A stretch of DNA of 48,932 nucleotides from a virus. Positions 1,656 to 22,742 of this stretch are shown one piece after another. The notes under the pieces are model-generated. The model had not been told where the DNA came from and did not search any database. It saw only the letters and a program-made list of their open reading frames with translations. The position numbers and the translations under genes are program-made. Position 1 is the stretch's first letter, and each line of letters begins with the position of its first letter. The stretch covers positions 1 through 48,932 of the IMG/VR virus record IMGVR_UViG_3300010151_000019; one strand, written 5' to 3'.

Positions 1656-1657
1656 CC

Positions 1658-4600: not shown

Positions 4601-7600
4601 CAACGCGTTCCTAAGCAGCTGCTAACTAATTTGACCGCTTTCTCCAAAAAGCCTCTTCAGCAAGAGGTTCTCGACGAGATGTTTCATGAAATTGTAGAAA
4701 CGTCCTGGAAGGGAGAACCTGAATATAATAATATGGTTCGTGAATTGATGCGTACTAAGGGAAAGTGGGATGAAAAAACTATGGATCTCATAGCTCGTAA
4801 CGTAGATCGATTGGACATGTCTCTTGTCTTAGAAGCCATGCGTTTACCTGGTAAAGAGCCCGCAAAGCTAGCAGAACGGCTGTATTCAGAGATTCTTAGG
4901 GTTAATGCCCAACAAGCTCAAGATATCGCTTCAGGGCGCGATGTAGACCCTGAATTAGCAGAAAATTATATTGGTGAACAATCCGATTATAGCTCTCCGA
5001 CTGAACGTATGATGAAATTAGGTGATCACATTGGGTCTTATATGCATAAATATGTACGAGATTATCGTATGCAAGCAATGAAAAATTATATCACTAATCA
5101 GGTATTCAGACCAAGATTACCGAATAGTGTCTCAGCACGTATGCGTCCATATACTTATTGGATGAAGAAAAAGTTTCCTGATTTGGAAGCTCGTGATGAT
5201 ATCTTTTATTTAGATGAATCCTATAGGAAGACTATGTTACAGTTGCCTGAGGGACTTATTGAAAATAGAAATAAAATGGAATTAGGTGAATTATGGGATA
5301 GTTATGGAACTGAACCTAAAGTTAAAGACTTTCTAACTAGTGTTTCTTTACGTGTTCCAATGGATTCGATCTCTGGAGCACATGTGTTAAAATTTAAAGG
5401 ATTTACTGGTGTAGTTGGTCATGGCATTCTTCTCCATCCACGCTCTATGCGCGCATTAGGTGGTGCTGATCTAGACGGTGATAAAGCACATGTATTCTTT
5501 GGATTTAAGAAAAAATGGAGAGACGCCTATGATTCAAACAAAATGGAATTCCTCGACGAGCAAGGAAGAATCAGTGATAGTAAAACAACGGTTGTGCCTG
5601 AATGGGTTCGTAAAAAATACAAACTTAAGCCTGGTGCAACATATCAAGACCTTCTTACGACAACGAATGAAGGTACTCCCAAAGAGCGGGCGCTAAAGAA
5701 GTCTCAAGTTTGGATGTATTCTCCCTTACATCGAATGAACATTTCATCTGCAGCATCATCTGGACGTGATCAACTTGGTCCTTCAGTAGTTACTAAGCAG
5801 ATATTAAACTCTACTTATGCTGAAATTAAAAATTCAGAAAAGGGCTATGAAGAATATACTGTTGGTGGTGGTAAAAATCCTACCATAGTAAGGATAACTC
5901 CCAGAGAAGATTTAGATTATGCGCGTGAATTAATGCGTGCTGAGGTTGCATTTCCATCTGATCCTTTAGATGAGCTTGGACTGCGTCCTAGGGAAGAATT
6001 TTTTGAAAAAGCTTTTGAATCATATTTCAAAGTTGATATTAAAAATCAAGGGAAGCGTAAGGTGTCTAATCTATATAGGCAAGGCACTTTTCAAACAATG
6101 CATAACCTTAATAATGCCTATTATGGTAAGAATTGGGGGGAAGGTAGGCATCATTCTTATGACGAGGTTAAAGTATTAAGTGAAAATATAAATGATTTGT
6201 CTGGTCATTCAACTATGCTTCCTAAGATGGCTAATTTAATGAAAGATGTAGACTGGAGTGATAGTCCTTTTATGAGGATTGAGCCTGTGGAAATCCAAAA
6301 GATTTATGCTATGCATAGTAAAAAATTAGGTGTTTATGATCGATTAAAGAAGATGCTTGGTAGAAAAACGTTTGATGTACAACTCTCTGGTGAGGGTGGA
6401 AGAATGATCCATGAGGTATATTCAAAGAATTTAATGTTTCAGGAGAGTAGGGAAAAGATAGCCATTTGGGAAAAAGATGTTTACAAGGCAATGTTTAAGG
6501 GGACTCAATGGGATACAGCTAGTTTCTGGGATCGTTCTTATAAAATAGGTGGATTAAAAAAGCAAGAGGCCTTTAGGCGTCATGCTATGGTTCGCTATGT
6601 AAATACAGCAGAAGATTTCTTAGTAAATGATTTATATGATATGGTTAGCGCAGATTTAGTGTCGGATTTGGCAGCAGAAATTCCCAATACGGATTTTGGA
6701 AGAGACTTTATTAAGACTACATCTAGGTTTGCACAACGTATTAAAGATTTAGACCAACTTGCATTTTTAAAGCGAAATCCAACTTTAGCTAAAACTTTAA
6801 AGTCTGTGGGCAAAAAAGATTCAAAAGTTGAGGTTGAAGAAGAATTTTCCATTGGTGAGTTAAAATCTGCGCAGCAAGATAAGAGCAATCTAGATCTTCG
6901 TATTCGAGAGTTTAAGTTTAATGAAGACCATGGCATTACCTCTCGTGAAAGCAATGGTAATGTTCAAGGCAATAAATGGAATAGGCCTCTGACAGCACAA
7001 GAGGCAGAGTTTGTTGATATTATGTTAATATCTTCTTTGAGTCGTGGACCATTTGAGCGTATAGATAAAATATTGCGCTCTAAGAAGAAACTTACTGACA
7101 AACAAAGGATGGAATTAGAGGAACTTAAAAAGGCTGCTAATGCTACCAATATGACACGTACTGCATTAGGTAGCTCTGCTGTAGCAGATAGTAGTATTAA
7201 AAAATTTTTACAAAGATATAGTGTGTTATTTAGGCAGGGGCATCATACTGTTCCCAGGGAAACTGTTAAAAAAATTGAAAAAGAGGTAGATCAAGATTAT
7301 AAAAAGCCCCAGAAGGATCCAGCTACTGGAGTTGAAACTGTGCTAGATCCTTTTGAAGATCCTTATGCTGGGTTACATAATATTCCACGGAAGCCAAATG
7401 GAACACTGTCTAAAGCAAATAGGCAAATTACCGACGAGGCTATTGACCATATTAATTATTATAATAACAGCATTGGTGCTGATTTAAACCTTATTGCTAG
7501 AGAATGGGTCGGTAAAGACTTAGATGCTTTTAATCTAGAAGATTGGCGTGTATTAAATCGTAATTTTAAAGAATTGCGTTCTGGCACCTGGTTTGCACGT

Positions 7601-10432
7601 ATGTTTCAACACTTTACAGGTAAAAAATTATCTAAAGAATTGTCTCAACGACACTGGTGGATGTTTCCTAGGGCTGTTAATAGAGAGCTTATGATGCATG
7701 AATTTCAAAAAGCTTATAATCAGGGCTGGTTTCAAAACTATAACGGTGAGATGGTATTGGGTTCATTGGCTAAGCCTACATTTTATTTGGAAAAGCAGCA
7801 ATTTATTCAAGGTAAGACGACTGATTATGCTATTCGTATGGATGAATATGAAAAAACTGAGTTAGCTGCTGAATTACATGCGACAGGTTATGATTCTATC
7901 CCTGAAGGTCCAGATATTTATCGTGCTGCTGCTATTATTAGAGAGCGTAATCTTCCTGAAGAAATGAAGGGTTGGGATAAATCAGATCCAATGACTCATT
8001 ATCATGAACAAGCTTATAAGGATATGCATGCTAAAATTTTAAAAGAAGTTAACTGGGAGGTAATCAAAGATCAGGAGTTCAGTGTTTCGACAGCTACAGG
8101 TACTGTAAAGCTTACTGGTGAAAAATTGGCTGAACAGATTAATGAAGTTATTACGCAGCGTAATTTAAAAACTTATGGTTGGATCGTTGGTGATGAATAT
8201 TTTTATGATAAAGGAGTAAAGGATTGGATTAAACAAGATTTTGAAAAAACTACTCTATCTGATTATGTTATAAAGAAGAATGGTAGGCCTCAGTTTCATG
8301 ACGAGGCTATGACTCAGCCTAAAATTGATGTTAATAAATTTATAGAATATGTTACTGATCAATTTAAATTAGGTAAGAAAATTGAAATAGAAAAATTTGG
8401 AATGGATGGTATACGTAAGATAAGTCGTTCTGTTTTCTTACAATCAGGACTTATTAATAAGAAATTTAAACGAATCTTGCAACGTAATGGTATTGCTCCA
8501 ACAGGACATTTTCCTGCTGATTCTTATTTTCCACATTTTTTCGATCAAACTGGTCGTAAAATGGCAGGAGAACATATTAAAAATGTAGTTAAGCTTATTA
8601 ATGATCGTGCAGATTGGCCTGAAACTAGAGAAAAAGCACCTACGGGCTATAAGGGTAAGGTAAAGGCTGAAGAGATACAAAAATTAATGTGGAAATATCA
8701 TAGCATTCGAGGAGAATGGCTTACTGGTGATATGGATGAAAATCATCATTTCTCAGGAGCTTTACAAGAAATTGCTAACAATAAGTCTGGGGAACATATC
8801 AGGTGGTTTGAACAGAACCCATCTACTGGCAACATGAAAAAACGCGCTTCACATATTCCTGGATGGAGAACTGATCCTGAAGCTTATGAGGTTTATCAAA
8901 AGAACCTTATTGACACCTTTCATAGACAAGTAGCTCAAATTATGGTACGAAGATCTATGGAAGATTTTTACAGTCAGCATATAAAGTCCTGGGGAGCTAA
9001 AACTGTTCAAGCTTGGTATAATTATATGGACTTATATGCACAAGATTCAATGGGATATCCTAGTATTATCCCTGATTATATGATTGAAGATCCTAAAATG
9101 GCTTTAAGTGGTACTCCTTACAAGTGGTTTGCTGATAATCGTGTGGCTGCAAGACTAAATAAAATTAAAGAAGGCTTAGGGTTTAAATCTGATACAATGC
9201 TTCCAGAGGAGCTCCGCGGCATTAATGTGCAAGATATCAGGCACTGGTCCAATCTGGAGGCTCAATACGCTATGGCTTCACTACTCGCTCATCCTAAATC
9301 TGCAGTTGCCAATCTATATGGAGGTACATTGCATACTATGATTAGCACTGGTTGGAAACATTTTAAGAATGCAAGGGATGTTTCTTACCTAAATACACAT
9401 TTACCACATCGTGTGGTAGATGGTAAGGCTATGCCTTGGACTGAAGAAGCTTTTAATGAATGGGTAGTGGGTCATGGTGTTATTCCATCTATGTTAAGAC
9501 AGGAAATTGGAATTAATCCTAAATATAAAAATGTGAAGTATAAGAAGGTTGTTGAGGATTTAATTAAGAAGGTAAAACAAGATCCTGATGTAGCTGATAG
9601 TACCTTGTGGGAGATTGTAATGACTAAACATGGTGTTAGTAGGCAGGCAATGGAACATTTATCGTGGTTTATGCATCGTCCTGAGCGTACTTTAAGACGA
9701 GATGCTTTTGTAAGTCATTATTTGGCTGCTAGAGAGAGGATTGGTAATGCTGATATGCCATTAGATCATCCTTTTCTTATTAATATGGCAAAGAAAGGTG
9801 TTCAAGCTACTCAGTTTTTATATTCAGCTCCCTATAGGCCCGCGTTTGCTCGTACATCACTTGGTAAAGTATGGACGCGTTTTCAACTCTGGGCTTGGAA
9901 TTCTGTGCGCTTTAGAAAGGATTTAATAGATGCAGCACACATCAAGGGCTTTAGACAGGGCACACCAGAGTTTGAAGCTTTTAAGCGCATGGCTATGGTG
10001 GATATGTTAATTTTAGGACTTGCAAATGTTTTTGCATATTCTTTATTTGAATCAGCGTTACCTGCGCCATATAGTTGGTTTCAGGATACAGCTGAATGGT
10101 TATTTGGTGATGAAAATGAACGCGATCGTGCATTCTTTGGAGCTTGGCCATCCCAGGTTGCTCCATTACAAATGGTAACTCCTTCTATATTGAGAATGGG
10201 TCCTCCAGCAATTAAAGCTATTTTAAGCGATGATTGGAGTAAACTCTCTGGATATTATGTGTGGACTATGTTTCCTGCAGGTAGAATGCTGCGCGATGTT
10301 AAAAAAACAATAGAAAACCCTACGAGAGGAGTAGAGCATGCAACAGGAATCCCTTACTTGCAGTTTGGAAGAGAAGTCAAAAAATATCGAGACGAAAAAT
10401 CCCCCTACGGATTTAAATCTCCCTGGGAATAA
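1658..10432 (+). CDS. Giant virion-type two-barrel DNA-dependent RNA polymerase, 2924 aa
   Basis: The key motif is GGADLDGDKA, with the catalytic DxDGD aspartates at D1271, D1273 and D1275. It is preceded by RVP at 1232-1234, then a His, and then ILLHP. This is the order R-x-P...H...L-x-P...ADxDGD seen in beta'-type double-psi beta-barrels, and it resembles the crAss-like phage virion polymerase (R-I-P...DFDID) and YonO. A candidate first barrel lies at about 865-1000 (DGA at 865-867, IIPK ending at K932, EKQ with K973, and a QPQRVP segment). Residues 1-330 contain Gly-rich hydrophobic segments. The C-terminal part (about 2700-2870) has aromatic and hydrophobic segments typical of ejected phage proteins. 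The size recalls the N4 virion polymerase, which belongs to an unrelated fold. It probably enters the cell with the DNA and transcribes early genes. The polymerase call is strong; packaging is inferred. Confidence 0.85.
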   Translation: MPVWDNENLPQQYANIASKKIDSDTFSPSMDAKGTLQMVGTYRENPNRFTEKDKKNIENHADWYGLGMDAVLPEDRGLLAKTVGEFGKGFFHGFTTWNPGFTEGMSDMEKISRNIGHLAGFAGWLPGAAKVLRGVGALKLAQVAEAGNLTSVPMWGAKKITGYGGKISKEILRSSIDKRAGASSAVAKFLLADKPKHVLEGAFNLGIASSIGSWQYGVDEMLHSGMHGAMFGAVFRSLGEYAPGGPPTLVRDAAGKRIITLEQKTDMAVRGMAGSLFTGLPSTMRGDTTPEQVYQYLLGGFFGAMETSAVAAGRNKFLKKMDVHNKGVIGKKPEELNFDPELTPGWGELSPAVKKSVREESQRIWGTAAEAGLASFIVMNKTDRLDTPEGFKDEGKVNKYGETLLKPESVEDHEGGRIEWGSTKELEKDPEAQKIPGEKSDDLDKPNLTSKMSDNDMEQVAAPEITQKAVNFVTYHMESTHNGNRQKIVNNAVKLDVLLEKYQNRETPELNRAPELIEAIQSKDGFNITLNSEQKGNLRQWVNTRNSGRNVLQFSIVAEGKYSKDDKGALTLASSDSKALTLNLNNPINLANNRKHNPTPEMPIELALKNADLREGNVRDPADRGYGVIDHVVMKDPERGNMMVEYTLGGYKEKVGSESYNRQVGNWFKWLEKKGYHYFSGRGDANRMIFVKTHPSVEKASVGTITNTIKNAVESMPSNKLFNNKKAFEQAQQEFADEYAVKNGRLTERQAKVLFNKIYMSNIMWDAELNGLITDPTKVFGDQFIGDAVQFNKRAQIWFTNGYAANPEFIKKRFTAVNKGVKLGKKEDRESIKAGRLRYIIQNDDPPSGERLATDPASWYGESTDGAIPLRGDIMKIINEDFGMPESGQNKSFIVSPDASRGALLGKFMFHADVPEADAFMRKHGIHMIIPKSAAKQMGLRDMYTLEDVINGKVDPTVYELDMTHLKGIYSEKQTHHMLQPQRVPKQLLTNLTAFSKKPLQQEVLDEMFHEIVETSWKGEPEYNNMVRELMRTKGKWDEKTMDLIARNVDRLDMSLVLEAMRLPGKEPAKLAERLYSEILRVNAQQAQDIASGRDVDPELAENYIGEQSDYSSPTERMMKLGDHIGSYMHKYVRDYRMQAMKNYITNQVFRPRLPNSVSARMRPYTYWMKKKFPDLEARDDIFYLDESYRKTMLQLPEGLIENRNKMELGELWDSYGTEPKVKDFLTSVSLRVPMDSISGAHVLKFKGFTGVVGHGILLHPRSMRALGGADLDGDKAHVFFGFKKKWRDAYDSNKMEFLDEQGRISDSKTTVVPEWVRKKYKLKPGATYQDLLTTTNEGTPKERALKKSQVWMYSPLHRMNISSAASSGRDQLGPSVVTKQILNSTYAEIKNSEKGYEEYTVGGGKNPTIVRITPREDLDYARELMRAEVAFPSDPLDELGLRPREEFFEKAFESYFKVDIKNQGKRKVSNLYRQGTFQTMHNLNNAYYGKNWGEGRHHSYDEVKVLSENINDLSGHSTMLPKMANLMKDVDWSDSPFMRIEPVEIQKIYAMHSKKLGVYDRLKKMLGRKTFDVQLSGEGGRMIHEVYSKNLMFQESREKIAIWEKDVYKAMFKGTQWDTASFWDRSYKIGGLKKQEAFRRHAMVRYVNTAEDFLVNDLYDMVSADLVSDLAAEIPNTDFGRDFIKTTSRFAQRIKDLDQLAFLKRNPTLAKTLKSVGKKDSKVEVEEEFSIGELKSAQQDKSNLDLRIREFKFNEDHGITSRESNGNVQGNKWNRPLTAQEAEFVDIMLISSLSRGPFERIDKILRSKKKLTDKQRMELEELKKAANATNMTRTALGSSAVADSSIKKFLQRYSVLFRQGHHTVPRETVKKIEKEVDQDYKKPQKDPATGVETVLDPFEDPYAGLHNIPRKPNGTLSKANRQITDEAIDHINYYNNSIGADLNLIAREWVGKDLDAFNLEDWRVLNRNFKELRSGTWFARMFQHFTGKKLSKELSQRHWWMFPRAVNRELMMHEFQKAYNQGWFQNYNGEMVLGSLAKPTFYLEKQQFIQGKTTDYAIRMDEYEKTELAAELHATGYDSIPEGPDIYRAAAIIRERNLPEEMKGWDKSDPMTHYHEQAYKDMHAKILKEVNWEVIKDQEFSVSTATGTVKLTGEKLAEQINEVITQRNLKTYGWIVGDEYFYDKGVKDWIKQDFEKTTLSDYVIKKNGRPQFHDEAMTQPKIDVNKFIEYVTDQFKLGKKIEIEKFGMDGIRKISRSVFLQSGLINKKFKRILQRNGIAPTGHFPADSYFPHFFDQTGRKMAGEHIKNVVKLINDRADWPETREKAPTGYKGKVKAEEIQKLMWKYHSIRGEWLTGDMDENHHFSGALQEIANNKSGEHIRWFEQNPSTGNMKKRASHIPGWRTDPEAYEVYQKNLIDTFHRQVAQIMVRRSMEDFYSQHIKSWGAKTVQAWYNYMDLYAQDSMGYPSIIPDYMIEDPKMALSGTPYKWFADNRVAARLNKIKEGLGFKSDTMLPEELRGINVQDIRHWSNLEAQYAMASLLAHPKSAVANLYGGTLHTMISTGWKHFKNARDVSYLNTHLPHRVVDGKAMPWTEEAFNEWVVGHGVIPSMLRQEIGINPKYKNVKYKKVVEDLIKKVKQDPDVADSTLWEIVMTKHGVSRQAMEHLSWFMHRPERTLRRDAFVSHYLAARERIGNADMPLDHPFLINMAKKGVQATQFLYSAPYRPAFARTSLGKVWTRFQLWAWNSVRFRKDLIDAAHIKGFRQGTPEFEAFKRMAMVDMLILGLANVFAYSLFESALPAPYSWFQDTAEWLFGDENERDRAFFGAWPSQVAPLQMVTPSILRMGPPAIKAILSDDWSKLSGYYVWTMFPAGRMLRDVKKTIENPTRGVEHATGIPYLQFGREVKKYRDEKSPYGFKSPWE

Positions 10433-11648
10433 ATTACCGCATACTATCTGTTTAAATATGATCGTTAAAGACGAGGCATCTAATTTGCGTCGTATCTTTG
10501 ATTCTGTTTTACCATATATCAGTACTTATTGTATCTGTGATACAGGCTCTACAGATGGTACTCCTGATCTTATTAAGGCCTATTTCGATGAAAAAGGGGT
10601 AGTAGGCGAGGTTTTACACCATAAATGGAAAGACTTTGGACATAACCATACCTTAGCTTCTAAGGCTGCATTTGGTAAGGCAGATTTTATTTTAACTATG
10701 GATGCTGATGATTATTTTGAAGGAACTCCAGATTTTAGTCAATTAGAAAATGGTACTGTATATAATGTTAAATTAGGATGTGAAACTGACTTTTATTATA
10801 GACCATTATTATATCCTGGTGATTTAGAGGCTTATTGGGTTGGCCCTTTACATGAATATATGACTTGGGATGATCAAACTATACCAAAAGATCATTTGCC
10901 AGGGCAATATGTTGTTACTTCTTATAGGGATGGATCAAGACAGAAGGAAGATACGGATAAATTAGCAAGAGATAGTGGCCTTCTTTTGCAGGCTATTGAA
11001 GATGAAAATGGTCCAATTGATCGGAATACATTTTATTTAGCTAATACTTATAGGGATCATCAACTGTATGAGGAAGCTTTAAAGTGGTATAAAAAAAGGA
11101 TTGCATTAAAGGGATGGGTTGAAGAGGTCTTTATTTCAGGATTAAGGGCTGCTAATTGTTATGATTGCTTGGGTGAAAAAGAAAAGGCTATATATTCTTA
11201 CATTCAAGCAGCAAATTATTATCCTATTAGGGCATTAGAAGCATTGCATCCTGTTATGGAGCATTATAGGAGCATTGGTCTATATGATTCTGCATATGTT
11301 TTTGGTATGCAGGCTTTTTTTATGCCTTCTACCCTATTTGTAAAGGGTTCTAAAAATTATGTTGATTCTAAACACTGTGAATTATTTGTTACAAATAGTA
11401 TTTATGATTGGAAATATTTTGATGAATTATCTGTCATCTCATCTTGGCTAATGCCAACTCAATATGAGCTATCTATATTGCTTAGTCAATTAGCTTTACA
11501 GTCTATTCACATGCAGGATCATGAGAGAGATAGAATAGAAAAAAATATAAGTTTCTTAGAAAAAAGGATAAAACAGACGGATAAAAAAGAAATACCAAGA
11601 GGAATATTAGACAGCATAAAAGAAATGAAGGCCTATTCTACAATTTAA
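10338..11648 (+). CDS. GT2-family glycosyltransferase with TPR-like C-terminus
   Basis: The sequence starts HTICLNMIVKDE at about residues 35-46, the usual first strand of GT2 enzymes of the TPR-linked subgroup. DTGSTDGT follows at 68-75 for the sugar nucleotide, and DADD at 122-125 is the metal-binding DxD motif. The C-terminal half (about 215-430) is helical and repetitive, with YKKRIALKGW-type TPR helices. The start is fixed by a very good GAGAGGAG site 6 bases upstream, so the gene overlaps the end of the polymerase gene by 95 bases in another frame. It probably transfers sugar to a virion protein, host surface glycan or DNA; the acceptor cannot be told from the sequence. It is the last gene of the left plus-strand block. 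Confidence 0.85.
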   Translation: MQQESLTCSLEEKSKNIETKNPPTDLNLPGNKLPHTICLNMIVKDEASNLRRIFDSVLPYISTYCICDTGSTDGTPDLIKAYFDEKGVVGEVLHHKWKDFGHNHTLASKAAFGKADFILTMDADDYFEGTPDFSQLENGTVYNVKLGCETDFYYRPLLYPGDLEAYWVGPLHEYMTWDDQTIPKDHLPGQYVVTSYRDGSRQKEDTDKLARDSGLLLQAIEDENGPIDRNTFYLANTYRDHQLYEEALKWYKKRIALKGWVEEVFISGLRAANCYDCLGEKEKAIYSYIQAANYYPIRALEALHPVMEHYRSIGLYDSAYVFGMQAFFMPSTLFVKGSKNYVDSKHCELFVTNSIYDWKYFDELSVISSWLMPTQYELSILLSQLALQSIHMQDHERDRIEKNISFLEKRIKQTDKKEIPRGILDSIKEMKAYSTI

Positions 11649-12568: not shown

Positions 12569-12736
12569 CTAAAGATTCCTAGAGTTCCGAAGGTTAGTAT
12601 TCTTTTTAGCATATTCTTCCATCCTTTCTTTGTTTTCTAGTGTACGTTGATATTTTTTAGCAAGTTCTTTATCTAAAAATTTTGTGCCATCTCCTGCAAT
12701 ATACACAAAGTCTAATTCATGTTGTAGGGGTTGCAA
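12569..12736 (-). CDS. Small hypothetical protein with TTG start
   Basis: A 55-codon frame that starts with TTG at 12736, preceded by AAAGGA at about 5 bases, and overlaps the end of the glycosyltransferase gene by 20 bases. The product contains FVYIAGDGTKFLDKELA followed by a charged helix rich in K, E, R and N. It fills what would otherwise be a gap of about 150 bases in a tightly packed operon. Function is unknown. The non-ATG start and short length are the main doubts. Confidence 0.5.
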   Translation of the reverse strand: MQPLQHELDFVYIAGDGTKFLDKELAKKYQRTLENKERMEEYAKKNTNLRNSRNL

Positions 12737-13799
12737 TTGTGTCCTTTAGTAGCGTATACCATTGTGCTGCAGTGTGATTAATAGTTTGTTTTAGTGCCCA
12801 TTCCTTAGCTCTTTTACGATATGGAATGGTTTGATTAGGGTTTTGTAAATAATGTTCTAGTTGCCATGCCATAGTGGGCATAAATTTATCATTATCTGGA
12901 TCAACATGACATACGATCCCTCTATTGGCCACTATATCTTGCAATGCTGCTATATTAGTAGTTAGGCAGAAACAACCTGCTTTTTGAGCTTCTAGGGCTG
13001 TTATACAATAAGTTTCAGGATAATGTGTAGGATAGAACCAAATATCAGTTTCAGCCCATTTTTCTTGGATAGTTTTATTATCTACATACGGATGAATATT
13101 AATTTGGTGTGGAGATTTATCAATATCTTTTTGCATGCCATCCCAGTGTGATATTTGTCGGGTCTTGCTACTTCCTTCACCGTAAATATTAAATTCGATT
13201 TTATGCTTTGCATCGATTAGATTTAAAATTTTTATTGTCATGTGTAGACCGCGCTCCCAATCTGATGTCCACATTAGTGAGTTGGGCTTTTTCTTTATCT
13301 TTATGGGTTTGGTTGGTGTTAAGCCATGCCCAATAATAGACATCTTTTCATCTGGAAATTTATTTAATTGGCTTTGTATATGTCTTTTATGCCAGTTGGT
13401 TAATGTGACTATGTGGTCCAATCGAGGGAGATTACTAACTAAATTGCTACCAGCTCTAAACATGCGAGCATTTAATACCCAGTCTATAATTTGGGTATCG
13501 TGTAGCCATAAAATAGTAGGACATTTAGCAATATTATAAATAAAATAATTTATATACCTTGAAACGACAACTGCATCAAATTGTGAAGTATCAATATCAG
13601 GAGTATAAGCAGAAAAAATAGTAATTTTACAGTTATATTCATTTATTAGTGCCTGTCCTAATTTAATTAATGATAATTCACTACCATAACAGGCAGCATT
13701 TTCATATTTGGGATCAGAATCGTTAGCTAATTCCCATATTTTTGGATTTAAACCGCCTATAGTTAAATTAACATATCCAGTATAGAATCCTATATTCAT
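12717..13799 (-). CDS. GT4-type (glycosyltransferase group 1-like) enzyme
   Basis: A GT-B-like protein of 360 aa. The N-terminal Rossmann-like half begins MNIGFYTGY and contains ILWLHD near residue 100. The C-terminal half has MWTSDWERGL (about 176-185), IYGEG (205-209), and the retaining-transferase E-x7-E motif at E262 and E270 within PETYCITALEAQKAG. It is the second glycosyltransferase in the window; the other is the GT2 enzyme on the opposite strand. The substrate is unknown. Its ATG overlaps the TGA of the small cysteine protein upstream (ATGA), so they are cotranslated. Confidence 0.85.
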   Translation of the reverse strand: MNIGFYTGYVNLTIGGLNPKIWELANDSDPKYENAACYGSELSLIKLGQALINEYNCKITIFSAYTPDIDTSQFDAVVVSRYINYFIYNIAKCPTILWLHDTQIIDWVLNARMFRAGSNLVSNLPRLDHIVTLTNWHKRHIQSQLNKFPDEKMSIIGHGLTPTKPIKIKKKPNSLMWTSDWERGLHMTIKILNLIDAKHKIEFNIYGEGSSKTRQISHWDGMQKDIDKSPHQINIHPYVDNKTIQEKWAETDIWFYPTHYPETYCITALEAQKAGCFCLTTNIAALQDIVANRGIVCHVDPDNDKFMPTMAWQLEHYLQNPNQTIPYRKRAKEWALKQTINHTAAQWYTLLKDTIATPTT

Positions 13800-15384: not shown

Positions 15385-15960
15385 CTACGTCTTTCGGACG
15401 CGTTTCTTTTTATTTATGGCAAATCCAGAAATTCCAAGCCCTGATTCAGTTGCTGCAATCACAGGCTTTCTGGCTTTCTTTTTATCTATTTCTACCTTGT
15501 ACCGTTTGTAATCATCTGGTACACGGTCTTCGTCCACTACTTCTAAAGGTCCCCAAGCTTCGTAAAGTTTATAACGTGCAGCATCTGTTTTAAAGACACC
15601 GTCGTTACCACAAGTTTCAATTATCATAGGTAAGATAACGCTCTTAAAATATTCCATAGAGCGCGTTACAGCCTTTTTACGATTTAATAGTCGCGTAAGC
15701 TCTGTTCTGATAGCTTGTATTTCGCCTTCAATAACACCTTCCTGACGAGATAATTCTAATGAAAAACTATCTACAGCATCTGTTTTTCTCTTAATAATAT
15801 CTCTTGTTGAGTCAATTTCTGCTGTCAAGGCAGTCATTGTGTCAACTTTGTCTTCATCAGGTATGGCGCTATCTAACTCAAGATATTCTTTCTCGAGTTC
15901 TAGTTCAATATAGCTTTCAATCAGCTCGCGCGAAGTCATGCGTTGTGTTGGTCCCGACAT
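15385..15960 (-). CDS. Siphovirus Gp157-like protein
   Basis: 191 aa. A long coiled coil (about 15-110) contains IEGEIQAIRTELTRLLNRKKAVTRSMEYFK and is followed by the small beta domain (YKLYEAWGPLEVVDEDRVPDDY), then the Lys-rich segment KVEIDKKKARKP and a final ISGFAINKK. This order matches the Gp157 family (PF05565), widespread in phage replication and recombination loci; the founding member was linked to phage resistance when expressed from a plasmid in Streptococcus. AAGGAG precedes the ATG, and the gene overlaps the end of the primase-helicase gene by 44 bases. Confidence 0.8.
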   Translation of the reverse strand: MSGPTQRMTSRELIESYIELELEKEYLELDSAIPDEDKVDTMTALTAEIDSTRDIIKRKTDAVDSFSLELSRQEGVIEGEIQAIRTELTRLLNRKKAVTRSMEYFKSVILPMIIETCGNDGVFKTDAARYKLYEAWGPLEVVDEDRVPDDYKRYKVEIDKKKARKPVIAATESGLGISGFAINKKKRVRKT

Positions 15961-17752
15961 TAGTGCTCCTTTGCAATCTAAATGAAGTGTTAAAGGTTAA
16001 TTTAGTTTCAAACAGTTCACCATCAGTATTTTTAAAACAAGATAAAGTTTTATCATCGTTTCCTGCTATCCCATTAAGTCCAATTACCTTTCTAGAAGCA
16101 TTTTCTATTGCTCCACTACCTTTGCCAGCATAGAGATCTAAGATTTGATTTCTAGAGTAATCACGACTTACTTGGGAAATTTGGATGATTACTATATCTT
16201 CGTTAACTGCTAAAGATGATAAACTATGTGAAATGTATTTGACTTGTTCATATTCTCCACGTATATGAGGTGGTGTTTCAACCAAATCAATGTAATCTAC
16301 TACTAAAAGGGCAGGTTTTAACTCTCTAACCTTTGCTCTAATAGTATCGACAGTAGGAGTTACGGTTTGCACAGCCATATGGGCCAATTGATCTTTACAT
16401 TGATCAAAAATGCTTACATAATTAGTGTTTACTGCCTCTTTATTCATTCCTGATATAATTTGTAAATTTCTTCTATGCATAACCCAATCAGCCAACTCTA
16501 ATGAAAGATAGAGTGTTGGTACTTGATAATTAGAGCTAATAGTATCATTTACGAAATCATAACCAAGGGCAATATTCTGTGCTAACGTAGTTTTATTTGA
16601 ACCTGTAGGGCCAAAAATAGTGATGAGTTCACCTGGATAAAATGTGCAGTCACTAAGCAATCCAAGCATACCAGCAAAATTAATAGCTCTACCTGTGAAA
16701 TCCGTAGTTAAGCGTTCATCTAATGAATCTTGCATTTGATCAGCATTTTTAATTTCTACATTATAATCCTTGTTTTTATAATATATACATCGAGGACTAC
16801 ATACGGATTTAAGGACTTTATCCTGGCATCCATAACGATATGTCTTTCTATATATATCTTCAACTTGGAAAATAATTTCACTTTCTTCTAAACTATTGTT
16901 ATTCCATTTCAATAAAGCTGCTTTTGTAGCTATTGATGGGATACCATGTCTTTTAAAGTGAGAAATTATTCTTAATAGATGATGATGACGACTTCCCTCC
17001 ATTGGTCCACTATTATACAGCGTTTGGATACAGGTAGCCATGTGTTTTGGCTCTACTGTAGTTCCGAAGCTATATATTTCGTTCTGAACTTTTTTATAAG
17101 TAAAGGATTTTAGTGCACCTTCTGACCACATTCTAGTATAAGCAAAACTTAAACGTGGTTCTTTTGCCAATTCATGTATGGCGTCTGGGGAAAGAGTCAT
17201 TAATTCATTATAAGTTAGAGGGATTTTATATAACTGAGTTTTATGATTAATGGTGTGAGGAGCTCTATATAGTCCTGTTGCCATATAAATCATATGATCA
17301 ATCTTAGTTATATCATTACACAGTCCTTCCATAGTATTTTTTATTGTATATGGGAGTCCTGGGCTTGGCTCTAAATCAAATAAATTACGATCTAAAAGCA
17401 TATGATAACCTGTACCAGAAAAATAGATTCTAAAATTACATTCTTGTAGATCTAGTTCATCAGTTAAATAGTAAGCTAAGGCTTGTGTGCCTGCTAATAC
17501 CCATTGATCACTGTTCTGACCTTTATCTATATCGATTGGAATTTTATCTATATCTCTGGCTCCAGCAAATTTTGCAATGCTATTATGTGTTTGAGCATAA
17601 CTTAAACCTAAGTCATCATAAGTATATACAGATCGATAGAGTTCTTTTTTAGTATCTATTGCATTCTGTATGCATCGTGCAAAATCATTGGAATGAATAA
17701 AGGAGCCCCTGGATCGGGGCCCCCCTATCGCTACTTCCAGATTGTTATACAT
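15917..17752 (-). CDS. Fused AEP-type primase and DnaB-like helicase
   Basis: The N-terminal domain shows archaeo-eukaryotic primase motifs: PIDIDKG (D74, D76), FSGTGYHMLL (H117) and IDH (D152) followed by the R-x-P-H-T-I-N-x-K-T-x-L-Y-K segment. A cysteine linker (C309, C318, C322) follows. The C-terminal half is a RecA-fold helicase with Walker A GPTGSNKTT (about 381-389), Walker B LLVVD (482-486) and the IVIIQISQVSR strand. It would unwind and prime the replication fork. Here the primase part is AEP rather than the TOPRIM/zinc type of T7 gp4. ATG 17752 is chosen over the preceding TTG; it overlaps the upstream stop by 8 bases, so it is translationally coupled. Confidence 0.85.
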   Translation of the reverse strand: MYNNLEVAIGGPRSRGSFIHSNDFARCIQNAIDTKKELYRSVYTYDDLGLSYAQTHNSIAKFAGARDIDKIPIDIDKGQNSDQWVLAGTQALAYYLTDELDLQECNFRIYFSGTGYHMLLDRNLFDLEPSPGLPYTIKNTMEGLCNDITKIDHMIYMATGLYRAPHTINHKTQLYKIPLTYNELMTLSPDAIHELAKEPRLSFAYTRMWSEGALKSFTYKKVQNEIYSFGTTVEPKHMATCIQTLYNSGPMEGSRHHHLLRIISHFKRHGIPSIATKAALLKWNNNSLEESEIIFQVEDIYRKTYRYGCQDKVLKSVCSPRCIYYKNKDYNVEIKNADQMQDSLDERLTTDFTGRAINFAGMLGLLSDCTFYPGELITIFGPTGSNKTTLAQNIALGYDFVNDTISSNYQVPTLYLSLELADWVMHRRNLQIISGMNKEAVNTNYVSIFDQCKDQLAHMAVQTVTPTVDTIRAKVRELKPALLVVDYIDLVETPPHIRGEYEQVKYISHSLSSLAVNEDIVIIQISQVSRDYSRNQILDLYAGKGSGAIENASRKVIGLNGIAGNDDKTLSCFKNTDGELFETKLTFNTSFRLQRSTNVGTNTTHDFARAD

Positions 17753-18338
17753 CAAAGTTTGAGAGTTCTTTTGCTAATTCTTCATTCTTTGCTGTAAGTT
17801 TGACACCATTTTGTGATGGAGCTACTCCTGTTGATTCTTTCAAATATCCATTGTCTTTCATATATTTGATATAATCTAAGAGAGCTTCTTCAGCACCAGG
17901 TTTGTTTTTAAAGATCCTAGGATGTACACGGGTATATTCTTTCCCATTTTTTCCCATTTCTTTAAATACATAGACTTTATATGGTCTGTCGGTATTAGTA
18001 AAGTGTTCGTTGAGATATGCTGCGATATCCTCAATTGGACTTTCATCAGCAGTTACCCATTTACCATTTTGATTAACTCCACCATCGAAACCTAAAGCAT
18101 CACATACTTGATTAATACGACGAACTAAGCCAGTAGGCTTAACTGTTCCGTCAACATTAAATTCAAATGATCCAGTAATTCGCATTGGTCGAGTGTAATC
18201 ACTATTATCGACATTCATATTAAATTGAAGATATACATCAGCCCAATCATACTTTGCTGATAAGTCTTCTATGTCTTTAATTCCTGCATTTTGTACTCCT
18301 AGCCAACCTGGCCCAGAAGCTGCGCGCATAATACTCAT
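17745..18338 (-). CDS. Putative ssDNA-binding protein
   Basis: 197 aa. The central segment has WADVYLQFNMNVDNSDYTRPMRITGSF as strands, then RRINQVCDALGFDGG and KVYVFKEMG...YTRVHPRIF, and a C-terminal helical part. The strand-rich core next to a RecA-like ATPase and a primase-helicase fits the single-stranded-DNA-binding proteins that accompany Sak4 ATPases in phages, although there is no acidic DxPF-type tip. The gene starts on the stop of the ATPase gene and ends on the start of the helicase gene. Role is inferred mainly from context. Confidence 0.55.
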   Translation of the reverse strand: MSIMRAASGPGWLGVQNAGIKDIEDLSAKYDWADVYLQFNMNVDNSDYTRPMRITGSFEFNVDGTVKPTGLVRRINQVCDALGFDGGVNQNGKWVTADESPIEDIAAYLNEHFTNTDRPYKVYVFKEMGKNGKEYTRVHPRIFKNKPGAEEALLDYIKYMKDNGYLKESTGVAPSQNGVKLTAKNEELAKELSNFDV

Positions 18339-19207
18339 TATTCTGCTCCTTTTTCTTTATAGGATTTTATTGTTTTCATTACATTACCGTAATCAAACAG
18401 TAATTTCTGTTGAGATAAGGGGCGCAGTCTAGATCCAACCATTCGTTCATCATAAGCTTCAAATGAAATTTCCATATCACCTGTTTCTTTATCTGCACTA
18501 GTATAGCCAATAATATCAGCTTTTGCAGTTAAGCCATATGATAATCCTCGAGGAAGGTTAGGGCCTAATTGTGCCTTATTATCTACAACCATTGTTGGTT
18601 TTGCATGGCTAATGATAATAAGATTTCCTCCAACCATTTTTAAGAATCGTTGCATTCTAACTACAATGTCAAGATTCTTTTTCCTAGCTGTGGCCCAATC
18701 AGATCCCCATTGTCCTTCTCCCATTGCACTAATACCTAAATCATCGACAACTGCGTCTTCAATCCAGGCATTTATTTGATCAATAGTGTCAAGAACAATG
18801 GTATCTATTTTGTAGTCTGCCCAGTTAGTTTCTAGGTCTTTGAGGATTTCTCCCAATGAATAGGTCTTCAGTGGTGTTCCTGCATTAGATCCATTGCGGT
18901 GGAAATAGCCACGTTCTTCTGGTGGTATTATTTCCTGTTGTGGTTCGCCATTTTTTGTAACAGCGATACCATCTTTTGTTACGGCTCTTATGGGTGGCAT
19001 GAGAGATGTGCATGTTATTACTTTAGCACCATCGACAAAATCAGAGCCAAGATCTGTGTCAATTAAAAGTACGCCCTCACTACCTTTTGGGGACCAACTA
19101 GCTGCTTGTGTGGTTTTACCAGTCTTTGGTTGTCCAATAAAATACCACGTTAAGCCTGCGGGTACCCCGTTCGTCCAGTCTGTTTTGACCGTTTGAATAT
19201 CTAACAT
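18338..19207 (-). CDS. RecA-like ATPase, Sak4 type
   Basis: 289 aa. Walker A GQPKTGKTT (25-33), then LLIDTD and Walker B TIVLD (136-140) within a single compact RecA-fold core. A later strand reads GNLIIISHAKP, as in AAA_24 / Sak4 annealing-linked ATPases. Sak4 proteins act in phage recombination together with an SSB. It is followed directly by the putative ssDNA-binding protein and the primase-helicase, forming a replication-recombination cluster. The ubiquitin-like module lies immediately upstream in the same transcription direction, 36 bases away. Confidence 0.8.
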   Translation of the reverse strand: MLDIQTVKTDWTNGVPAGLTWYFIGQPKTGKTTQAASWSPKGSEGVLLIDTDLGSDFVDGAKVITCTSLMPPIRAVTKDGIAVTKNGEPQQEIIPPEERGYFHRNGSNAGTPLKTYSLGEILKDLETNWADYKIDTIVLDTIDQINAWIEDAVVDDLGISAMGEGQWGSDWATARKKNLDIVVRMQRFLKMVGGNLIIISHAKPTMVVDNKAQLGPNLPRGLSYGLTAKADIIGYTSADKETGDMEISFEAYDERMVGSRLRPLSQQKLLFDYGNVMKTIKSYKEKGAE

Positions 19208-19243: not shown

Positions 19244-19897
19244 TTACGGATTCCAACGCTTCTTTTCAAGCATCATTGTTGGAAAATGAAAAGAAATTTG
19301 CCCGTGCCATGGTTGGCTCGTTACTAATTTCCGTACAGTATTAGAAATAAAACTTCCGCTCATATTACTACAATAGCTTGTTGCTTTTGCATTGCATGGT
19401 TCTATATTTCCAGCACTGTCACTATACCATTCTTTCAGGTATTTGGTTTTGGTAGGGTTCTTAAAAGTATATTGTTGATAATGTTCAGCTCCCATTCTTC
19501 CATCAATTAAGAAATCTGGTTGTTTAAGGGCCAAAATGGCCTCTACAGCCTCTTTTCTTGAAGTCATTGAATCAAAGCCTAAGATTATTATATTATCATC
19601 TTCAGGGTAATATGTAGAAAATTCTCCATTATAACACTTAATTTGAATATCAGTGTTAATATCATACAACATAGACATTAATGCGTGTGTTTTAGCTTGT
19701 CCAACATGATGTCCACAAAATTGTGAAACACCAATATTTTCTTCGCTTACTATGTCCCTGTCATATAATTTAAGAGAATCTGCACCCATACGTACCAATT
19801 GCATAGCTGCGGAACTTCCAATAGCCCCGCAGCCTAAGATATGATAAGTATAATCATTGAAATTATCTACAATGCCTTCATATCGTTGGTTCATCAT
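19244..19897 (-). CDS. E1-like (ThiF/MoeB/UBA superfamily) adenylating enzyme
   Basis: 217 aa. The Rossmann glycine loop is GCGAIGSSAA (22-31), followed by LKLYDRDIVSEENIGVSQF with D46, N54 and Q59 in the order D-x-D...N...Q that binds ATP in E1 enzymes. Then come GFDSMTSR (D109), LIDGRMGAE (D132, R134), and a Cys-bearing segment EPCNAKATSYC (C168, C176), either of which could be the thioester cysteine. It is short compared with MoeB (about 250 aa), has no rhodanese domain, and lacks the usual second CxxC zinc pair. The start overlaps the JAB stop (ATGATGA). It presumably activates the GG end of the small protein encoded at 22521-22742. Confidence 0.85.
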   Translation of the reverse strand: MMNQRYEGIVDNFNDYTYHILGCGAIGSSAAMQLVRMGADSLKLYDRDIVSEENIGVSQFCGHHVGQAKTHALMSMLYDINTDIQIKCYNGEFSTYYPEDDNIIILGFDSMTSRKEAVEAILALKQPDFLIDGRMGAEHYQQYTFKNPTKTKYLKEWYSDSAGNIEPCNAKATSYCSNMSGSFISNTVRKLVTSQPWHGQISFHFPTMMLEKKRWNP

Positions 19898-20859
19898 AGA
19901 ATGTAGTCCTCCCGATCTAAGGGTGGTGTATATTCAGCATCTAAAATACTAGTTTCTACTGCATTTTGAGCGTTCCATTTATGTTCATCGTCTACTGTGC
20001 AAATATATCTTTCAGATTCAATATAATATACAATACCATCTAATTCATCAGCAGTTTTGCAAAGTCCCACACGGTAGTTTAGCTTTTTCTTAGCTGCTTC
20101 TTTGTTAAGGTCTTTAATTACATCTTGATATACTTTAAAATCAATAGTTCCAGTGCAATAATCAGAATTAATATCATCTAATTCACCACATAAGAACTCA
20201 TATGCAATTTGCCTTTCTGTATCTTCAGGGCTAGCTCCAGCATATGAATCATTAAATAATGCAATTTGTCGAGCATCGTAAGTATATCCTTGATCACTAG
20301 ATAAGCCTATTCTATTTTCATATGTTGGATAATTTGCTGCCGTTTTCCATTGATGAGCTGTACATTTCTTTTTAACTTCATCAGTAATACTTTGTGGTAT
20401 AGTCTTTTCTTTGCCCAAGATATTTAGTGTAACATCTTGTTCAAGAGTAACTGGCTGCCAAATATTAACTCTGAATTTATATTCTTCTTTTAAGTTAACT
20501 ACTAGTGACATAGACATTTGTCCACTTGACATTTGGTCTATAGCATTCAGATCAGTTGGACTCCAAAAGGCGTCCATTGTGTGATGTGAGTGCCACCATA
20601 CGAATTGTAAGCTATCTAATTTCTTATGTTTCATAGCGGTCTTAACGTAATACTGTGCTAATTCTTCCTTATCTAATGTACAATGTGCAGCTGTAACCCT
20701 TTGTTTAAGGATTATTGGATCGCTTAATATGAAATCACCATCATCATCGCGATGGGCAATCATCATACCACCGATTTCAGCTTTAAATTGATCATAAGAA
20801 GATTTAGCATAGTTTATAACTTTATTCCAGCTTTTTTCAGCTATATAGAATTTAGCCAT
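19894..20859 (-). CDS. JAMM/JAB (MPN+) metallo-isopeptidase
   Basis: 321 aa from ATG 20859, chosen because GAAGGAG lies just upstream; the longer open frame overlaps the E2-like gene without a ribosome binding site. The JAMM signature is complete: E28 in AEIGGMM, H90 and H92 in WWHSHH, then exactly seven residues to S100 and D103 (SPTD). That is E...H-x-H-x7-S-x-x-D, the zinc site of deubiquitinases such as Rpn11 and of bacterial BilD/Cap3-type enzymes. About 200 further residues of unknown fold follow. It likely removes conjugated Ubl from targets. The gene overlaps the upstream E2-like gene by 8 bases and the E1 gene by 4. Confidence 0.88.
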   Translation of the reverse strand: MAKFYIAEKSWNKVINYAKSSYDQFKAEIGGMMIAHRDDDGDFILSDPIILKQRVTAAHCTLDKEELAQYYVKTAMKHKKLDSLQFVWWHSHHTMDAFWSPTDLNAIDQMSSGQMSMSLVVNLKEEYKFRVNIWQPVTLEQDVTLNILGKEKTIPQSITDEVKKKCTAHQWKTAANYPTYENRIGLSSDQGYTYDARQIALFNDSYAGASPEDTERQIAYEFLCGELDDINSDYCTGTIDFKVYQDVIKDLNKEAAKKKLNYRVGLCKTADELDGIVYYIESERYICTVDDEHKWNAQNAVETSILDAEYTPPLDREDYIL

Positions 20860-22444
20860 TGTTAGTATCTCCTTCTTGTTGTTGAAGATTAAGGATACGT
20901 CTAGTTCCATGAGTATCTGCCCACCATTGCATTCGTTCTGCAATTTGTTCCCTACTAGGTGTGCCATGGGGTGTATCATCATCTTCAGGTTGATTGTTTG
21001 AGTTGTTTGCTTCGTGTTCTGCCACTCTTTGAGCAACGACCTCTTCAGCCATTTCTTCATCAACAGTGAAAGTTCGTTCTCCTACTGTGTCTTCAATGTG
21101 ACGATCTAAGTCTGCTCGAATTCTATCGTGGATCTCTTGTCGTTGTTGTTGTTGGGTTGGTGTGAGTGGTGTTTCTGTGCCTTCAGGTGGTGGAGTAGGT
21201 TCAATGTCAGCTTCGCTTACAATAGATGTTTCATGACCGCTTGTAACGGTTAGTTCTTCATCAGTAATAATAGGATCTTCCATATATCTATCACATCTAT
21301 TTCTTAGTTGGCATTCAATGTCATCACAGTAATCATTTAAGGCAGCCTTTGTTTCATTATTTTCAGGAGCTAATATATTTTCGTAACTGTCATTAGTACC
21401 ACCTACATGTCTCCATAGACGTCGAGCACATCTTTCAGTATCTTGTCCCACTGAATGTTTAAATGTCTCAGAATAATGTCCTGGAATACCATATAATGCT
21501 AACCTAATATTATTTAAAGGTCGTGTACCAGGTATATTGTATCTGCACCAAGATCTAAAATGAGTGTATAATGCAACAAAGTCCATTCTTAGTGCTGCAT
21601 TAGATATGTGCGTTTGATAGTCACCTAAGCATGCATGAAACCATCCATTACTTGTGCCATTACTCCAAGGTCTTGAAATATATGGGAAACTAAGCCGCGG
21701 ATCATCTGTCGTTCGGACGATTTCATGCGTCCCTTCGCATCCTAACGCGGCATACATATTAGCCATTTCACCTATTGGTCGTATACATAACTGATTCAGA
21801 TACCTATTTAATTTAACATATAGTCTCATCTCTAAGTCTTCAAATGGAATGTCACCAATATGAGTGTTAACATTATATACTGGAATAATTACATCTTTTA
21901 GTTTTAGATTAATCATAATTTCATACTTACTCCATTCATTATTAAGAGGTTCTTCACGATGGCTGCCAATAGATACACTGATTTCAGAAGGGTTTGATTG
22001 ATTGCTTATAAAATTATTAAATGCTGTTAATTGATGTGATATAGTGTCTTGCAATGAAATGAATTTCTCTTGTAAAAGATCAGTATTATCTTGAAAAGTA
22101 ACACCTTCTCTTCTTAAACGAGCCATCATGCTATCAATTTCTATGACCTGTTCTTTCATTCTATTCCAATTCCAACTATTATTGTCACGTCGATCAAATA
22201 TTTTACTGATATTGCCACGTTTATTCCATTGTAGTATATTCTTTTCTACCATGGCACAAACGCTATCAAAAGAACCTGGTGACCATCTAAAGGTTTTTGT
22301 ACATTTCAAAGGTTTAACTTCAGGAAATCTATGTAAATAAGTACGATTGTAAGTATCTATTTTTTCAACTACTTCAGCCTGAGGTCCTAAAAGTATGTTT
22401 TCAGCTAATTCACGTATATTCGGATTAAAGTCTTGAATTAACAT
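20852..22444 (-). CDS. E2-like (UBC/RWD-fold) protein candidate with long acidic tail
   Basis: 530 aa from ATG 22444, which has GGAGG at good spacing; the open frame extends further but without such a site. The central part has strands (WSKYEIMINLKL, DVIIPVYNV) and then FPYISRPWSNG...WFHACLGDYQTHI with C272. Bacterial and phage E2-like families carry an HPH/PYI-type segment followed by CLG, then a helix and a YN motif; here WCRYNIPGTRPLNNI follows. C272 is therefore the proposed thioester cysteine. Residues about 410-530 are acidic and Pro/Thr/Gln-rich, probably disordered. The assignment rests on this motif plus the E1 and JAB neighbours; it could instead be a substrate or adaptor. Confidence 0.6.
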   Translation of the reverse strand: MLIQDFNPNIRELAENILLGPQAEVVEKIDTYNRTYLHRFPEVKPLKCTKTFRWSPGSFDSVCAMVEKNILQWNKRGNISKIFDRRDNNSWNWNRMKEQVIEIDSMMARLRREGVTFQDNTDLLQEKFISLQDTISHQLTAFNNFISNQSNPSEISVSIGSHREEPLNNEWSKYEIMINLKLKDVIIPVYNVNTHIGDIPFEDLEMRLYVKLNRYLNQLCIRPIGEMANMYAALGCEGTHEIVRTTDDPRLSFPYISRPWSNGTSNGWFHACLGDYQTHISNAALRMDFVALYTHFRSWCRYNIPGTRPLNNIRLALYGIPGHYSETFKHSVGQDTERCARRLWRHVGGTNDSYENILAPENNETKAALNDYCDDIECQLRNRCDRYMEDPIITDEELTVTSGHETSIVSEADIEPTPPPEGTETPLTPTQQQQRQEIHDRIRADLDRHIEDTVGERTFTVDEEMAEEVVAQRVAEHEANNSNNQPEDDDTPHGTPSREQIAERMQWWADTHGTRRILNLQQQEGDTNNG

Positions 22445-22462
22445 AAGTACCTCCATATTAGA

Positions 22463-22500
22463 GAAGGGTGAATAAAATAATGTTATCTTACTCACCCTTC
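22463..22500 (-). promoter_or_regulatory. Hairpin between Ubl and E2-like genes
   Basis: A 13-bp stem with one G-U pair joins 22463-22475 to 22488-22500 around a 12-base loop. It sits 20 bases after the Ubl stop and upstream of the E2-like ribosome binding site. No T-run follows on the minus strand. It could stabilise or process the upstream message and so raise Ubl above the enzymes. Confidence 0.5.
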
Positions 22501-22520
22501 AAGGTTATTTATTAAAGCTG

Positions 22521-22742
22521 TTAGCCCCCTGTCTTATCTTCGGTTACTACAGCAACATGGTCTGCTTTGTCAGGATCTGTGGTATCTTTAAAGATTGTAG
22601 AATCCTTAGCAATTACACCATTTACATTAACAGTTGAATCAGCAGGAATATTCTTCTCCCCACGAAAACCTCCAACATTAACAGCATCAATCTGACAGTC
22701 TGCAAAGTTGGTGGTATTATTCATAAGTTTAATTAGTGGCAT
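22521..22742 (-). CDS. Putative ubiquitin-like modifier ending in Gly-Gly
   Basis: 73 aa, close to ubiquitin (76), ThiS (66) and MoaD (81). The protein ends exactly at KTGG-stop, so no proteolytic trimming would be needed. The last 36 residues follow the ThiS/MoaD pattern: a strand VNVNG, a loop, IFKD, then ADHVAVVTEDKTGG, matching the family's NG...L.DGD.V......GG. The N-terminal half is less typical and its helix is not obvious. It is encoded first in the E2-JAB-E1 gene set, has a very strong AAGGAGG site, and is bracketed by RNA hairpins. The Ubl identity is inference from the terminus, size and operon; an unrelated small protein with a chance GG end remains possible. Confidence 0.6.
   Translation of the reverse strand: MPLIKLMNNTTNFADCQIDAVNVGGFRGEKNIPADSTVNVNGVIAKDSTIFKDTTDPDKADHVAVVTEDKTGG

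Follow-up and report, generated by a model that had tools for sequence, protein, structure and literature searches.

A predicted ubiquitin-like conjugation and deconjugation cassette among the replication genes of a phage, with a counterpart in crAss-like and Flavobacterium phages

Four adjacent genes on the minus strand of the IMG/VR virus record IMGVR_UViG_3300010151_000019 encode the parts expected of a small ubiquitin-like conjugation system: a ubiquitin-like protein (Ubl), a 530-amino-acid (aa) protein that we call E2-like, a JAMM isopeptidase and an E1-type adenylating enzyme (Table 1). The 48,932-bp record, analysed whole and hereafter called the window, also encodes terminase, portal and major head genes; coordinates are positions in it unless another locus is named. 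Transcription runs from Ubl through E2-like and JAMM to E1. A preliminary description, made from the sequence, had reported these as adjacent and partly overlapping genes for a Gly-Gly Ubl, a protein with a key cysteine (C272), a JAMM and an E1. All four are confirmed, in position and in strand. The overlap holds for three of them (8 bp between JAMM and E2-like, 4 bp between E1 and JAMM), whereas 76 bp separate the Ubl gene from the E2-like gene.

Table 1. Features of the window and of related loci discussed in the text. Loci other than the window carry their own numbering.
Sequence	Feature	Position	Strand	Details
Window	Ubl	22521-22742	minus	73 aa; ATG, ribosome-binding site AAGGAGG; C-terminus DKTGG-stop
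Window	E2-like protein	20852-22444	minus	530 aa from ATG behind TGGAGGT; P254, C272
Window	JAB/JAMM zinc isopeptidase (JAMM)	19894-20859	minus	321 aa; E28, H90-S-H92-x7-S100-x2-D103
Window	ThiF-type adenylating enzyme (E1)	19244-19897	minus	217 aa; GCGAIG 22-27, D46, N54, Q59
Window	Sak4-like ATPase	18338-19207	minus	PHROG 124, 3.8e-17
Window	Conserved 197-aa protein, unknown family	17745-18338	minus	first labelled single-stranded-DNA-binding
Window	Primase/DnaB-type helicase	15917-17755	minus	DnaB_C 1.1e-14; PHROG 19, 1.8e-29; PHROG 16345 (primase), 2.4e-16
Window	Mu Gam-like DNA end-protection family match	15385-15960		PHROG 253, 1e-8
Window	Glycosyltransferase-like genes	10338-11648, 12717-13799		near the 2,924-aa open reading frame
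Window	Open reading frame	1658-10432		2,924 aa
L002	Conserved gene in a locus without a Sak4 homologue	8829-9443		PHROG 11717
L009	Ubl-JAMM-E1	1375-3359		no E2-like gene between; contig ends upstream
L089 (cr106_1)	Split gp79-type gene	1722-2925		split right after KIKSG
L117	Split gp79-type gene	4627-5902		split right after KIKSG
L178	Two tandem gp79-type Ubl-like genes	4604-5613		before one E2-like gene
L082	gp79-type protein with conserved C-terminus	4241-4918		E-I-D/N-x-M-F
L106	Insert	7217-9509
L128	Insert	6929-9290
L146	Insert	7205-9602
L129, L167, L175, L178	Insert			in JAMM
L158, L160, L163, L169	Insert			in E1
L138	Insert			in E2-like

The set is not private to the window phage but common in uncultured relatives, a point missed in the preliminary description. 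Scanning IMG/VR with the E1 yielded 218 confirmed relatives, from which 80 loci were kept, and the other genes were then located upstream through iterated profiles. All four genes occur in the same order in every locus with more than 3.7 kb before E1 (47/47), and JAMM is present wherever more than 950 bp precede E1 (70/70). A search started from JAMM recovered E1 in 69/69 loci and the E2-like gene in 65/65; Ubl was recovered in 58/60, and the two loci without it are stretches that end inside the E2-like gene. With the four-gene order in 47/47 and 65/65 usable loci, the set is complete and compact, as first described. Purifying selection acts on all four genes, as judged from the ratio of nonsynonymous to synonymous substitution rates (dN/dS), which is 0–0.33 for Ubl, 0.03–0.29 for E1, 0.06–0.23 for JAMM and 0.18–0.52 for the E2-like gene, the highest of the four and thus the weakest selection. 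Because the E1 matches Pfam ThiF over the cut-off (61.4 bits, 9.6e-17), the order is kept in 47/47 and 65/65 loci and all four genes are under purifying selection, the set is not a product of chance. Two sequence patterns for the window-type E1 found no relative in 84,980 bacterial species genomes, and the best relatives of the window terminase, at less than 30% identity, span many hosts.

The 73-aa protein combines the two hallmarks of ThiS/MoaD/ubiquitin-type proteins, a predicted beta-grasp fold and a C-terminal Gly-Gly. Its AlphaFold2 model (predicted local distance difference test, pLDDT, 88) places strands at residues 3–8 and 14–17, a helix at 23–30 and further strands at 37–40 and 61–66, followed by a flexible Gly-Gly tail; the order of strands and helix is that of the beta-grasp. 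The best neighbours of the model in the Protein Data Bank (PDB), as found by Foldseek, are Mth1743 (template modelling score 0.70), the parkin Ubl, Caldiarchaeum ubiquitin, BfUbb (Bacteroides fragilis ubiquitin) and ThiS, and nearly all matches are to Ubl or ThiS proteins, with probabilities up to 1.00 at modest E-values, none below 0.001. The Ubl fold first proposed for this protein is thus upheld by prediction. While the window Ubl itself had no match of note in Pfam, 13 of 35 homologues matched ThiS (best 1.9e-5). A PDB match of the Ubl profile to WD-40 proteins (E = 3.7e-7) covers a 13-residue stretch only and fails as a domain. K70, G72 and G73 are invariant across the homologues, and K-x-G-G is kept in all 89 distinct sequences wherever the gene ends: no residue follows the Gly-Gly in 32, among them the window's own, where it is already terminal; one to three follow in 40; and 5–126 follow in 17, so that 57 of the 89 extend 1–126 residues past it. 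Conservation of the Gly-Gly whatever the end of the gene is the signature of a processed Ubl precursor needing a protease.

The identities of JAMM and E1 stand as first proposed. The JAMM has the complete E...HxH-x7-SxxD zinc site of JAMM/MPN+ deubiquitinases, with E28, H90, H92, S100 and D103 each at 100% in 74 homologues; its Pfam Prok-JAB score falls just below the 25-bit cut-off (23.6 bits, 4.9e-5), and its best solved-structure match is an Rpn11 homologue from Caldiarchaeum (E = 8.9e-6). The E1 carries the GxGxxG and metal/ATP residues of a ThiF superfamily adenylation domain. It has profile matches to UBA5 (1.7e-14), MccB, UBA6, TcdA, MoeB, ThiF and BubCD, and its best curated-model match is a ThiF model; it has no C-terminal rhodanese domain and is not fused to an E2. 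Of the D...N...Q motif originally noted in it, D46 is invariant but Q59 is not a conserved position in relatives. GCGAIG, D46, K69, D109 and C168 are invariant in the 81 E1s of the window group, and G22, G24, D46, K69, D109 and C168 are common to these and the aligned E1s of crAss-like and Flavobacterium phages. Given this invariance, C168 is the better candidate for the thioester-forming catalytic cysteine of the E1.

We infer that the 530-aa protein is an E2, and its homology to the UBC family is the weak point of the whole case. The name E2-like is given because of the gene's position, the invariant P...C-x-G and the partner proteins. C272 sits in 'FPYISRPWSNGTSNGWFHACLG', and the motif before it reads [H/F]P[Y/F]I...C, with Pro and Cys invariant; every full-length homologue keeps P254, C272, P309 and C378, which bears out the earlier choice of C272 as the key residue. 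In the AlphaFold2 model (pLDDT 81, 47 sequences) a helical N-terminal half (approximately residues 10–146) precedes a beta-rich core (approximately 154–304) that holds both P254 and C272, and a helical C-terminal region and disordered linkers complete the chain. The core runs through five strands (154–211), a strand at 235–240, P254, a short strand, C272 and two helices. This modelled order of elements around C272 resembles a UBC domain, though no UBC protein matched in the full-length fold search.

The cassette lies directly upstream of replication genes. A Sak4-like ATPase gene, the gene for the conserved 197-aa protein and a primase-helicase gene follow E1 on the same strand with spacings of 36 bp or less. 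PHROG and Pfam matches of the Sak4-like ATPase and the primase-helicase support the replication setting given in the preliminary description, and the 197-aa protein has no significant Pfam or PHROG match. Among the window-group loci, a primase-helicase lies downstream of E1 in 74, the 197-aa gene in 56 and Sak4 in 39. In 19 loci without a Sak4 homologue another conserved gene stands between E1 and the 197-aa-type gene; it encodes an approximately 200-aa protein ('YTEVKDR...') of unknown function. The Mu Gam-like match in the window is consistent with a replication operon. Two glycosyltransferase-like genes lie elsewhere in the window, near its 2,924-aa open reading frame.

The preliminary description also missed a parallel set, which crAss-like and Flavobacterium phages carry. 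Among named phages, E1s similar to the window's occur only in crAss-like phages, in phages of Flavobacterium psychrophilum and in a few uncultured phages, and named phage records hold no close relative of the window's E2-like protein or JAMM. In crAss001 the block consists of gp79 (225 aa, hypothetical), gp78 (444 aa, hypothetical), gp77 (JAMM) and gp76 (E1, annotated as 'thiamine biosynthesis protein'), and gp55–gp52 are the equivalent in Flavobacterium phage Fpv3; across the two phages the annotations run hypothetical, hypothetical, metalloprotease or hypothetical, and thiamine biosynthesis ThiF. The block also occurs in Dulem virus 41, DAC15, cr111, cr128, cr85, Kolpuevirus and others. A scan for the gp78 family found 79 IMG/VR loci, all with a gp79-type gene directly upstream and with JAMM and E1 following wherever the contig reaches. 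Y-x-H-S-H, C198, E234-S235, G238 and P240 are invariant in 81 gp78-type proteins, and gp79-type proteins start with a Ubl-like part, which in most ends K..[S/A]G; the tail behind it is between 1 and approximately 140 residues long. Profile comparison shows that the E1s (99.9%, E = 1.4e-34) and JAMMs (97%, E = 3e-11) of the two groups are homologous. For the E2-like proteins, whole-protein comparison aligns C272 of the window with C198, and the weak link between the cores has a score of 26.9, where the highest of 30 column shuffles reached 16.3 and the reversed profile 20.6. The crAss block lies between the primase and genes for uracil-DNA glycosylase, a resolvase and an exonuclease, in a module that also holds a helicase and Sak4.

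Inserts split the JAMM, E1 or E2-like gene in a number of crAss-like loci, and Rfam calls three of them group I introns. Mobile introns tend toward the most conserved codons of important genes. Here the inserts mostly hit catalytic motifs, with breaks in or close to GLIH/SHNN of JAMM, in GGxG and IDGR of E1, and in YMH/SH of the E2-like gene; insertion at such conserved sites speaks for a functional role of the HSH...C region. The gp79-type gene shows variations of its own. In two loci it is split right after KIKSG, which sets the Ubl-like part apart from the tail, and in cr106_1 the splitter is an annotated HNH endonuclease gene. In another locus two tandem gp79-type Ubl-like genes precede a single E2-like gene. 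Many gp79-type proteins, typified by that of L082 and its relatives, keep an extreme C-terminus of E-I-D/N-x-M-F far behind the Ubl-like part; because this end is conserved, the tail probably does more than serve as a discarded propeptide.

Among known systems, the closest in layout is the PRTRC plasmid cassette, with the order C (Ubl), F (a helical protein), B (prokaryotic E2 family D), A (JAB) and ThiF (E1). The phage set has the same order minus F, and shares the small separate Ubl, the stand-alone E1 and the mobile element setting. This agreement in gene order was missed in the preliminary description. The two sets differ in that the PRTRC C proteins examined do not end in Gly-Gly, unlike the phage Ubl, and PRTRC lies next to ParB, in one plasmid also with ssb; neither ParB nor PRTRC proteins E or F were found among the window neighbours examined. 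At the sequence level PRTRC_A is the only curated model touched by the phage JAMMs (E = 0.018 and 0.075, far below the cut-off), the score with PRTRC_ThiF is 28, its cut-off being 145, and the phage E2-like protein reaches 0.5–2% probability with the PRTRC-B profile. A direct link to PRTRC-B was in register at the cysteine but not clearly above shuffled controls, and is only suggestive. By analogy, the N-terminal helices of the E2-like protein might stand in for PRTRC F.

The Bil (BilABCD) and Bub anti-phage operons encode the same four activities. BubCD is among the distant matches of the window E1 and BilD among those of the crAss E1, while no Bil model was among the matches listed for any window protein; unlike Bil and Bub, the phage set is phage-owned and core, and its Ubl and E2-like proteins lack a match to defence models. 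Type II cyclic-oligonucleotide-based anti-phage signalling systems (CBASS) have homologous, only distantly related E1 and JAMM domains in Cap2 (E1-E2) and Cap3 (JAB). The phage set, in contrast, has a separate small Ubl and an unfused E1 and E2, and no nucleotidyltransferase such as the CBASS CD-NTase was seen in the window operon. Membership in PRTRC, Bil or CBASS is not established. Operon type 6d, listed from bacteria, has the same parts as the phage set (Ubl, JAB, E1, E2 and an alpha-helical protein), and in its E2 the Cys is followed by a conserved His (Iyer, Burroughs and Aravind, 2006; PMC1779556). The phage case in that survey is the lambda/T1 tail Ubl, TAPI, with the TAPK JAMM; it too is a phage-encoded Ubl and JAMM, but no E1 or E2 is described with it and it belongs to the tail, not to a replication module (PMC1779556). 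We found no description of a phage Ubl-E2-JAMM-E1 set in the open-access literature, although an earlier report elsewhere is possible, and the main text of two crAss-phage papers mentions neither ubiquitin nor ThiF.

We consider with fair assurance that the four genes form a self-contained Ubl conjugation and deconjugation cycle belonging to the phage replication module, and that this cycle probably acts on replication proteins. The computational support comprises the predicted Ubl fold, the identities of E1 and JAMM, the invariant catalytic residues, the near-obligate linkage of the genes and the purifying selection on them. In the proposed cycle JAMM would first cut any tailed Ubl precursor back to the Gly-Gly; E1 would adenylate the C-terminal glycine and take the Ubl as a thioester, probably on C168; and the Ubl would then move to C272 in the 530-aa protein, where the helical regions on either side may replace an E3 or substrate adaptor. 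That protein, acting as an E2, would attach the Ubl to a substrate, most likely a replication or recombination protein of the same operon (the Sak4-like ATPase, the conserved 197-aa protein and the primase-helicase are candidates), from which JAMM would remove it again.

Several observations weigh against this reading, most of them concerning the 530-aa protein. It has no sequence similarity to a known E2 family in Pfam, PDB-sequence or profile searches, and its crAss counterpart likewise matched no known E2 by sequence. A whole-chain Foldseek search of its model against the PDB returned noise only and no UBC protein, so that the UBC fold first suggested around C272 is not supported by any solved E2, whether by profile or by whole-chain fold search. 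The residue before P254 is Phe in the window, and His in only approximately 62% of relatives. The link between the window and crAss E2-like cores is weak at 22% probability, and a viral fold search with the 530-aa model placed the crAss protein only tenth (E = 0.23). Nor is the profile link between the window Ubl and the crAss Ubl-like domain significant, and the latter ends K..[S/A]G, usually with a long tail. One locus, L009, lacks an E2-like gene between Ubl and JAMM; it is the only such case, and E1 and JAMM are never kept on their own by relatives where the sequence is complete, so that a condition which the preliminary description had named as refuting its reading did not occur. As for substrates, we infer them from the neighbourhood, which is the only pointer to them.

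A role in anti-defence or host takeover, in which the cascade tags host proteins or disarms a host Bil, Bub or CBASS system, was raised in the preliminary description and seems to us unlikely. Bacterial Ubl systems do act against phages (PMC10097602), the E1 and JAMM are distantly similar to CBASS E1-E2 and JAB models, with BilD as a further distant match of the crAss E1, and dN/dS is highest in the E2-like gene. Yet neither the E2-like protein nor the Ubl matches any defence component, and the cassette order and its place in the replication module are fixed across very divergent phages, unlike sporadic anti-defence genes. A position fixed over such distances therefore points to a core replication or recombination role; the cassette is a fixed block of that module and not a variable accessory locus, and interference with host defences is accordingly not favoured.

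Still less probable is a sulfur carrier system, in which a ThiS/MoaD-like Ubl, adenylated by E1, would become a thiocarboxylate and pass sulfur to a nucleotide, tRNA or cysteine pool; the JAMM would then behave like Mec+, and the acceptor enzyme would be the 530-aa protein. The closest Pfam family of the Ubl is indeed ThiS, a ThiF model heads the curated matches of E1, and sulfur-carrier clusters are known to include JAMM proteins (PMC1779556). Against these stand the replication neighbours, the genes examined including none for a rhodanese, a cysteine desulfurase or sulfur assimilation, the lack of a C-terminal rhodanese domain in the 217-aa E1, and the gene with an invariant P/H...C-x-G between Ubl and JAMM, which fits a transfer enzyme better. 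That the Ubl is a structural or scaffold module, only processed by a complex of E1, E2-like protein and JAMM without conjugation, as has been proposed for the lambda tail Ubl and its JAMM peptidase, would agree with the phage Ubl and JAMM pairs (TAPI/TAPK) known in tail assembly (PMC1779556) and with the long conserved tails of the crAss Ubl-like proteins, but is very improbable for a cassette that always includes an E1 with intact ATP and cysteine sites and lies among replication genes, not tail genes.

Relative to bacterial ubiquitin-like systems, what is new in the conjugation cycle proposed here is that it is phage-owned and core, and that it includes an unrecognized E2-like family. Ubiquitin-like conjugation was long held to be eukaryotic and was later found in bacteria, chiefly in mobile or anti-phage operons; a complete set serving as a core replication block of phages would, if true, reverse the usual roles. 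It would also give a function to crAss-like genes labelled 'thiamine biosynthesis', 'metalloprotease' and 'hypothetical', and would offer a simple, genetically tractable four-gene cycle and possibly a new E2 family. The proposal is immediately testable, since laboratory cultures of Bacteroides support the growth of crAss001 and DAC15. It may be, and we regard the evidence as evenly balanced on this wider point, that a class of phages including the gut-abundant crAss-like phages runs its own Ubl cycle, with a new E2 family, as part of the replication core: a viral counterpart of the control of replication by SUMO and ubiquitin, there by default rather than taken up as a weapon.

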